From the NCBI RefSeq assembly GCF_003967275.1, contig NZ_AP018721.1, positions 1,922,001 through 1,986,000 on the forward strand: DNA of 64,000 bases, written 5' to 3'. This document shows, one piece after another, positions 49,892 to 50,624 of the stretch. How positions within the stretch are numbered: position 1 is the first letter of the stretch; every line of letters begins with the position of its first letter. A program made the position numbers and the translations under genes. The stretch is from Sulfuritortus calidifontis. GTDB taxonomy: Bacteria > Pseudomonadota > Gammaproteobacteria > Burkholderiales > Thiobacillaceae. The notes below the pieces were generated by a model. The model had not been told where the DNA came from. It worked only from the letters and a program-made list of their open reading frames with translations, and ran no database searches.

Positions 49892-49920
49892 TTGACATTA
49901 CCAGAGTAAATTAATAAGGT
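49892..49920 (+). promoter_or_regulatory. Probable promoter of the SOR-like gene
   Basis: A consensus TTGACA (49892-49897) is followed after 17 bases by TAAGGT (49915-49920), a weak -10. The surrounding 250 bases are clearly AT-rich. The leader to the ATG would be about 70 bases. Confidence 0.45.
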
Positions 49921-49995
49921 AATGGCATGCGCGTGAATCGCGCTTTATTCGAGTTTGATTCATTAGTAGTTGCTTATTTACTTAAGGAGATCATC

Positions 49996-50448
49996 ATGGC
50001 CCTGATCAACGGCTTCAATTCCGACGGCGTCGTCACCATCAACCGCGTCATCCTGCGTCCCGAATACAGCGTGGAAGATCTGGAAGAGCGCGTCGCCACC
50101 CTGTGCGAGAACGTCAAGACCTACCACTCCGAGACCGGCTTCGTCGGCGGCTTCGTTTGCCTGAACAGCGGCGCCGTCTCCAACGAAGGCTCCACCATCG
50201 GCCAGGCGGTGGAAAGCCCGATGAAGGGCAAGGAAGCGCTGATCGTGACCTTCTGGCAGTCGTTCGAGCAGCACGAGGCCTCGCACCGTTCCGAGACCTT
50301 CCAACCCCTGTTCAAGAAAGTGCTGGAACTGTGCGAAAACGGCAACGAAGAGATTGCCTACACCATGCTGTGGTCGGGCAAGGCCTACAGCCCTGAGGAG
50401 GCGAAGGAAGCTCGCGCCGCCAAGGAGAAATACGCCAAGGCCGCCTGA
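49996..50448 (+). CDS. Single-domain protein resembling the N-terminal half of sulfur oxygenase reductase
   Basis: AAGGAGA precedes ATG 49996, giving 150 residues with no signal peptide. Compared from memory with archaeal SOR (about 308 residues, two ferredoxin-like halves), motifs align in order and spacing: VTIN (SOR VAIN), Cys37 (SOR Cys31), GFVGGF at 48 (GFVGF at 39), TFW at 85 (TFW at 78), His93 and His97 in HEASHR (His86 and His90 in HEEMHR), and Glu119 in EIAYTMLW (Glu114 in EPIYEIIY). In SOR these are the catalytic cysteine and the three iron ligands of cytoplasmic sulfur disproportionation. The second half of SOR is absent and a Lys/Glu/Ala-rich helix closes the protein. A general antibiotic-biosynthesis-monooxygenase-fold protein is the alternative. 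It has its own promoter region and no operon partner. Confidence 0.6.
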   Translation: MALINGFNSDGVVTINRVILRPEYSVEDLEERVATLCENVKTYHSETGFVGGFVCLNSGAVSNEGSTIGQAVESPMKGKEALIVTFWQSFEQHEASHRSETFQPLFKKVLELCENGNEEIAYTMLWSGKAYSPEEAKEARAAKEKYAKAA

Positions 50449-50449
50449 T

Positions 50450-50523
50450 CGTTGCCGTTTCGGTGAAGGCTAACGTGAGCGTAGCGAACGTTAAGCGAAG
50501 CGGCCGGAGCCAAAACGGCAACG
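50450..50523 (+). repeat. Hairpin repeat copy A with 11-bp inverted ends
   Basis: The 46-bp core (50468-50513) starts GGCTAACGTGAGCGTAGC and ends AGCGGCCGGAGCCAA. Its stem pairs AACGT with ACGTT. The core is enclosed by perfect inverted arms CGTTGCCGTTT (50450-50460) and AAACGGCAACG (50513-50523), the second of which is also SOR-like coding sequence. Other copies lie at 18520-18565 and 56172-56218. Confidence 0.75.
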
Positions 50524-50624
50524 AAGAGATTGCCTACTCGATGCTCTGGTCGGGCAAGGCCTACAGCCCAGAAGAAGCGAAGGAGGCCCAGGCAGCGAAG
50601 GCGAAGTACGCCAAGGCCGCCTGA
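50514..50624 (+). pseudogene. Truncated second copy of the SOR-like gene (C-terminal 36 codons)
   Basis: These 111 bases encode NGNEEIAYSMLWSGKAYSPE and onwards to the stop at 50622-50624, matching codons 115-150 of the intact gene. By my count about 14 of 111 bases differ, mostly at third positions. That pattern suggests an older paralogue that evolved under protein-level constraint before losing its 5' part. The lost part is replaced by the hairpin repeat, which keeps the frame open back to a GTG at 50463 (54 codons). Confidence 0.8.

Follow-up and report, generated by a model that had tools for sequence, protein, structure and literature searches.

Does a gene of Sulfuritortus calidifontis encode what amounts to one half of a sulfur oxygenase reductase (SOR)? 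The question is raised by an open reading frame for a 150-residue protein in a 64,000-nucleotide stretch of the genome (hereafter the window; positions 1,922,001 to 1,986,000 of contig NZ_AP018721.1). In the initial annotation, made from the sequence alone, the product was described as resembling half of SOR, in a one-domain version with the active site kept. SOR itself is a hollow 24-mer with bound iron and with both oxygenase and reductase activity, one and the same iron site serving to oxidise and to reduce elemental sulfur. An extant protein with a single domain and intact essential residues would make it possible to test how the two-domain chain of SOR arose.

The gene, its family and the relation to SOR

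The translation of the reading frame is as initially described: besides Cys37, it contains GFVGGF at residues 48–53, TFW at 85–87, HEASHR (with His93 and His97) and EIAYTMLW beginning at Glu119. Comparison with eight relatives places the gene under purifying selection (dN/dS 0.045–0.244). The preceding 200 bp have a GC content of 0.38, versus a median of 0.64 for the loci of the relatives, in agreement with the AT-rich control region reported earlier. Of the "wrecked second copy" reported along with it, only a part could be recovered: a repeat is indeed present 62 bp downstream of the gene (Table 1), but it comprises the 3′ end alone and is no whole copy, having neither a start codon nor the Cys/His motifs. 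Tail repeats resembling this duplicated 3′ end were also observed in loci L003 (two), L008 and L009. An 11-bp perfect inverted repeat (50450–50460 / 50513–50523) flanks the spacer in front of the duplication. With regard to a possible REP element in the 62-bp spacer, a 19-base piece of it is matched in the genome by one exact copy and four near ones, against none for the control.

Table 1. Features in and around the half-SOR gene (window coordinates)
Feature	Coordinates	Strand	Remarks
Sigma-70-like promoter	49892..49920	+	TTGACA 49892–49897, 17-bp spacer, TAAGGT 49915–49920
IscR type-1-like site (putative)	49898..49922	+	19/25 positions of the E. coli consensus; overlaps the promoter
Ribosome-binding site AAGGAG	49984..49989	+	read from the sequence
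Half-SOR coding sequence (subfamily A), 150 aa	49996..50448	+	Cys37, Trp87, His93, His97, Cys113, Glu119
Duplicated 3′ end of the half-SOR gene (last 36–38 codons and stop)	50508..50624	+	87% identity; query residues 113–150

A scan of genome contigs returned 411 stretches encoding relatives of this protein, from which the best 80 were kept, so that the conservation figures that follow describe the nearer relatives. In the alignment of 34 sequences from the window and these 80 loci (subfamily A), the mean column identity is 81%, and Cys37, His44, His93, His97, Cys113, Glu118 and Glu119 are invariant; Cys37, His93, His97, Cys113 and Glu119 are present in 81/81 A proteins (the window and the best 80 of 411). 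When 369 genomes of the class were searched with the profile, a divergent subfamily B of shorter proteins beginning with MF (E about 1e-21 to 1e-26) also came to light; as an alignment of 20 sequences, it matches the A profile with a probability of 99.8. Across all half-SORs (alignment A5), C37, H93, H97 and E119 are among the 24 columns invariant in 40/40 rows, and the conserved acid, initially left as Glu118 or Glu119, can thereby be fixed as Glu119. Cys113 is lost from three of the B or phage sequences (L129, L147, L151). Overall, the half-SORs are a real family under purifying selection, comprising subfamilies A and B. The family is not named in the databases searched, nor is it described in the titles and abstract beginnings of the literature on one-domain or SOR-like proteins and on viral sulfur genes, a survey to which subscription journals mostly do not belong.

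The 150-aa protein reaches the cut-off of no Pfam or NCBIfam model. It scores 14.9 versus the required 25 bits with the SOR model PF07682 (profile positions 5–104 of 300), 16.7 versus 400 bits with NF047630 (positions 5–108 of 308) and 13.8 versus 23.1 bits with the ABM model PF03992. By cut-off, the half-SOR is not an ABM protein. Neither is it an SOR by membership: while the His-x3-His pair, the Glu and the essential Cys are all present in the SOR register, it has one domain instead of two in tandem in a chain of about 310 aa, it has no counterpart of the Cys101-x2-Cys104 motif, its single Cys113 not being universal, and its scores remain under the cut-offs.

At a relaxed threshold (E ≤ 1), the Pfam SOR model matches 34/34 A members (best E 4.4e-4) and the ABM model 18/34 (best E 6.9e-4), while the NCBIfam SOR model matches 30/34 (best E 7.1e-5); among B members taken singly, 1/4 matches Pfam SOR (E 0.62). 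In profile–profile comparison (hhalign), A5 scored 47.7 against the SOR N-terminal half (probability 93.6), 22.3 against the C-terminal half (4.5) and 21.1 against 20 ABM proteins from the relatives (5.9). The controls against the N-terminal half reached 21.0 at most for 100 column-shuffled versions of A5 and 13.3 for the reversed one, and the ABM score falls inside the shuffle range. The profile search proposed in the initial annotation did not end in matches to ABM alone, and the residues are conserved in the relatives. The profile matches, the hhalign scores and the invariant residues sustain the view that this single-domain protein is related to the N-terminal half of SOR.

This relation was traced residue by residue with the ten full-length or nearly full-length SORs (six canonical or nearly so, four divergent) whose alignment also supplied the SOR halves for hhalign, numbered by the first alignment row (C33, G41, W82, H88, H92, E116). 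The spacings given earlier were reproduced, W-to-H (6) and H-to-H (4) being identical, GFVG-to-W differing by two and Cys-to-GFVG by three; the H-to-E spacing is also off by two (22 in the half-SOR vs 24). The profile alignment pairs Cys37, Trp87, His93 and His97 with Cys31, a Trp, His86 and His90 of the Sulfurisphaera tokodaii enzyme (StSOR), and the longer of two such alignments also pairs Glu119 with Glu114. According to PMC7398979, the StSOR variants C31A, H86A, H90A and E114A have no detectable activity, and C101A and C104A retain about a tenth of it. Variation among B and phage copies affects Cys113, while the four residues matching the StSOR-essential positions are invariant. The half-SOR is only 28% identical to SOR over 106 columns. 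To judge by conservation, it would work like the SOR active site.

The predicted model of the 150-aa protein (mean pLDDT 88.8, pTM 0.78) has the dimeric alpha/beta barrel fold, compared here as a monomer, with an extra C-terminal helix, and gives 152 Foldseek matches at E ≤ 0.001, those listed being mostly ABM-type barrels. The top structural match is SnoaB (3kg0; VIA, Z 14.2, 97 residues, rmsd 1.5). SOR (2cb2) aligns over a longer stretch (126 residues) with Z 11.2 and rmsd 3.1, to residues 150–308, the half without iron. Because ABM barrels come first and 2cb2 is aligned by its iron-free half, the structure identifies the fold and not the iron half of SOR, and it is the sequence that points to the latter. 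In a profile search of the PDB, the SOR chain 6m35 ranks first with a still weak E of 0.018. The best PDB row for the single sequence was triosephosphate isomerase (E 0.039); the common stretch is only 70 residues, and it was treated as chance. The model of a B protein is weaker (mean pLDDT 74.5), SOR being absent among the matches (at least 50) listed for this low-confidence model, and a Foldseek search against viral structures gave no informative match.

The predominance of ABM-type barrels in the structural listings would be expected of an ordinary ABM-like monooxygenase or ligand-binding barrel that came to resemble SOR by convergence, as would the 18 ABM matches in Pfam and the W-to-H spacing of 6 seen in two ABM proteins (L170, L183). 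We regard this explanation as very improbable, since the His-x3-His pair occurs in 0/20 ABM rows, C37 and E119 are invariant in the half-SORs, and a generic ABM monooxygenase is weak by profile next to the SOR N-terminal half.

Hosts, gene neighbourhoods and upstream sites

A half-SOR match was found in 73 of the 369 genomes of the class, with A in 53, B in 25 and both in 5 (a few A entries, in G067, G131 and G196, being fragments). In a sample of the phylum, 8/398 genomes match, including S. calidifontis, and five belong to other classes. By gene content the carriers are sulfur oxidisers: dsrA or soxB is present in 72/73 (dsrA in 64, soxB in 66) as compared with 92/296 genomes that have no half-SOR (p 3.4e-29 in a test that ignores shared descent). 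The sole exception, G337, is a 75% complete genome with a weak soxB match. Names among the best 80 of the 411 loci include Thiobacillus, Thioalkalivibrio, Sulfuritalea, Sulfuricella, Sedimenticola and Thiohalomonas, and the gene is retained in four small genomes of 1.0–1.1 Mb (G142, G255, G351, G287). In many families, the half-SOR singles out bacteria equipped with genes for sulfur oxidation. It is not universal in sulfur oxidisers, since 55 genomes with dsrA are without it.

SOR itself exceeds its cut-off in 10/369 genomes, six of which also have a half-SOR match (one a fragment). Four genomes (G126, G131, G015, G043) contain a divergent, full-length SOR-like subfamily (L139–L142) with 32–34% identity to the first canonical SOR, Pfam SOR scores of 204–218 bits, and HExFHE and CxKCG-like motifs; a half-SOR is also found in three of these genomes and a fragment in the fourth. 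Another SOR-like protein (L138, G134:C5:51244-52131) follows a twin-arginine-like stretch, RRKFLKMTAMAAGG, and might be located outside the cytoplasm.

Genome context failed to reveal a conserved neighbour. In 110 A loci the largest neighbour family occurs in 14, the ORFs being delineated by a crude longest-ORF method prone to include antisense shadows; in 20 B loci the largest occurs in 3. This accords with the initial annotation, in which the gene was described as monocistronic. No neighbour in these 130 bacterial loci points to sulfur or Fe–S metabolism, and homologues of the phage IscA and IscU described below are found in 0/130. With the 150-aa protein as query, no match was obtained in plasmids or named phages.

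The upstream regions of subfamily A have features in common. The TTGACA box together with a TAAGGTAAT-like word recurs in the close relatives L001, L002, L011 and L012, and the 200 bp preceding A genes share TTAGTTGACTAATTTACTCAGGTAT-like words. On comparison with the IscR type-1 consensus of E. coli as given in PMC3899308, 59/80 A upstreams (the window and 79 loci) reach at least 19 of the 25 positions and 51/80 at least 20, with 21/80 under 19; among 1600 dinucleotide shuffles of the same upstreams, the values are 0.5% at 19 and 0.13% at 20. A second A set of 30 class-wide genomes, one of which had too little upstream DNA, gave 21/29 at 19 and 14 at 20, with four at 16 or less, and the upstreams of iscR-like genes from such genomes, used as a positive control, gave 26/30 at 19 (21 positions for the iscR of S. 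calidifontis itself). By contrast, 1/20 bacterial B upstreams reaches 18 or more. Over the 850,907 bases of the 80 loci, sites with at least 20 positions number 54 in the 200 bp that precede the gene, spread over 51 loci, as against 17 in all other positions (counts halved, the consensus being palindromic); at least four of the 17 lie 274–277 bp upstream (L027, L048, L052, L069). A negative control of 84 AT-rich upstreams had 15% at 20 or more (1.7% of 936 upstreams in all), but it is probably contaminated, since divergent neighbours can share one intergenic site, and the scan of whole loci is therefore preferred. The A upstreams come from related species and are, for this reason, not independent. 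IscR-like proteins were matched in 48/48 genomes searched, in 28 over the cut-off, and several half-SOR genomes (G318, G305, G311, G309, G132 and others) have four to six such matches. Overall, there is a putative IscR type-1-like site at A promoters and not at those of B.

Copies on viral contigs

B-type genes were identified on 39 IMG/VR contigs, and no A-type gene was found on viral contigs. C37, H93, H97 and E119 are present in 38/38 full-length phage copies, the 39th being cut. Nine contigs (L157, L159, L149, L150, L144, L148, L224, L216, L214) encode one or another of the phage families for tail, baseplate wedge, virion or head closure proteins, DnaB-like helicase, UvsX, SSB or helicase loader. 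Single proteins tested from L145, L146 and L207 gave no named family, and two phage half-SOR copies tested had no PHROG match. To account for the tree, the gene must have moved or switched between phage and bacterial lineages two times or more.

A homologue of the phage A-type Fe–S carrier is found near the B-type gene in 12/39 viral loci, the other 27/39 having no carrier detected nearby; further neighbours in the 39 loci are a Ring_hydroxyl_A-like protein (9), a small lipoprotein-like ORF (8) and IscU (2). The carrier exceeds its Pfam cut-off in L145, L146 and L157 and stays below it in L149 (23.2 vs 26.3); the single Ring_hydroxyl_A-like copy examined is likewise confirmed by Pfam. In eight loci (L153, L154, L155, L156, L157, L159, L201, L203) a cassette of constant order was observed: A-type Fe–S carrier, small lipoprotein-like ORF, B-type half-SOR, Ring_hydroxyl_A oxygenase-like protein. 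At L150:5471-9330, the half-SOR has on one side a radical SAM protein that weakly matches a B12-binding family and on the other a SPASM radical SAM protein.

The carriers and IscU genes on viral contigs, together with the IscR type-1-like sites upstream of A, are compatible with an accessory role in Fe–S assembly, in which the half-SOR would donate or carry iron or sulfide in concert with IscU/IscA and would use its His2-Glu site to bind the Fe(II) to be delivered. We consider such a role rather unlikely. Fe–S assembly and IscR-like proteins are general, whereas the half-SOR goes with dsrA or soxB; the 130 bacterial loci covered are devoid of homologues of phage IscA or IscU, the B upstreams have no IscR-like site, and the invariant cysteine matches the catalytic cysteine of SOR.

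DsrC is encoded on the same record as the B-type half-SOR in 11/39 cases (1/17 + 10/22), most of the DsrC-like proteins examined retaining the last cysteine only; in the reverse search, 7/80 phage DsrC loci contain a half-SOR. DsrC on viral records, the residues common with SOR, the dsrA/soxB co-occurrence and the six half-SOR matches among the ten SOR genomes could all be reconciled with an enzyme of energy metabolism, a slimmer SOR that would oxidise sulfur or persulfide in the cytoplasm and feed sulfite to the main pathway, the IscR-like site merely reflecting its iron demand. However, most carriers (64/73) already have dsrA, and the gene has no conserved neighbour. In addition, control by a type-1 IscR site is usual for Fe–S assembly and atypical for bulk catabolism. 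A purely catabolic role is, in our assessment, quite improbable.

Proposed function and comparison with known systems

The explanation that we favour, at a probability of roughly 0.55, is that the half-SOR is a one-domain relative of the iron-holding N-terminal half of SOR that acts on sulfane sulfur, with subfamily A tied to Fe–S status. By analogy with SOR, from which we infer the iron, the dimer, the substrate and the activity, the protein is most likely a dimeric non-heme iron enzyme. Two copies would pair into the barrel for which SOR needs a single two-domain chain; a mononuclear Fe(II) would be held by His93, His97 and Glu119, and Cys37 would carry a persulfide or polysulfide, the sulfane sulfur of which may be oxygenated or disproportionated at the iron site, giving sulfite and/or sulfide in the cytoplasm. 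To judge from the upstream sites, [2Fe-2S]-IscR may repress the subfamily A gene until clusters become scarce. The A protein would then trim or mobilise sulfane sulfur, thus protecting or feeding Fe–S assembly in cells heavily loaded with sulfane sulfur and Fe–S, and B-type copies may serve phages by keeping this chemistry going in the host. The IscR-like site and the phage copies, neither of which the initial annotation foresaw, move the likely role as far towards Fe–S homeostasis as towards the oxidation of bulk sulfur. The interpretation given in the initial annotation is, overall, partly supported.

Several observations weaken the favoured explanation. No SOR cut-off is passed, identity is low, CxxC is absent and B members hardly match SOR singly. 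ABM barrels stand above SOR in the structural ranking, with SOR aligned by the iron-free half. The IscR-like site is missing from B upstreams and falls short in 21 of the 80 A upstreams. The bacterial neighbourhoods offer no gene that points to sulfur or Fe–S, and 55 dsrA genomes are without a half-SOR. Finally, the gene is found in just 7/80 phage DsrC loci, and 27/39 viral loci have no carrier nearby.

A broader synthesis can be put forward tentatively, with the odds somewhat against it. It would see the half-SORs as unnamed one-domain SOR-like iron enzymes that link sulfane-sulfur chemistry to Fe–S homeostasis in sulfur-oxidising proteobacteria, subfamily A being controlled by IscR, subfamily B being carried by phages of sulfur oxidisers beside Fe–S carriers and DsrC, and the family representing the pre-fusion homodimeric form behind the two-domain SOR. 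The half-SOR may be a missing step in cytoplasmic sulfur handling, and it would join sulfur oxidation to Fe–S regulation.

Among known systems, SOR (PF07682, NF047630) has the equivalents of the conserved residues (Cys31, His86, His90 and Glu114), as well as a Trp six positions before the first His, a motif that contains GF and a related barrel. In contrast to its two domains in about 310 aa, the half-SORs are single domains of 123–154 aa; they have a single, not universal cysteine in place of CxxC and score under the SOR cut-offs, and they differ further in that subfamily A has the IscR-like site and subfamily B occurs on phage contigs. The ABM proteins (PF03992, e.g. SnoaB, 3kg0) resemble them in the dimeric alpha/beta barrel core and, in some members, in a His six positions after Trp. 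Unlike the half-SOR, they have no HxxxH in the 20 rows compared, and the half-SOR chain is longer, with the extra C-terminal helix. As to the known phage sulfur genes, PMC8190135 mentions IscA and NifU in sulfur phages, and the words "sulfur oxygenase" do not occur in the main text of PMC8190135 or PMC4164917. By comparison with the genes of these two sources, the half-SOR is a different gene that is likewise borne on phage contigs in its B-type form, with DsrC on 11/39 of the records, and it adds a candidate to the list of phage-borne sulfur genes.
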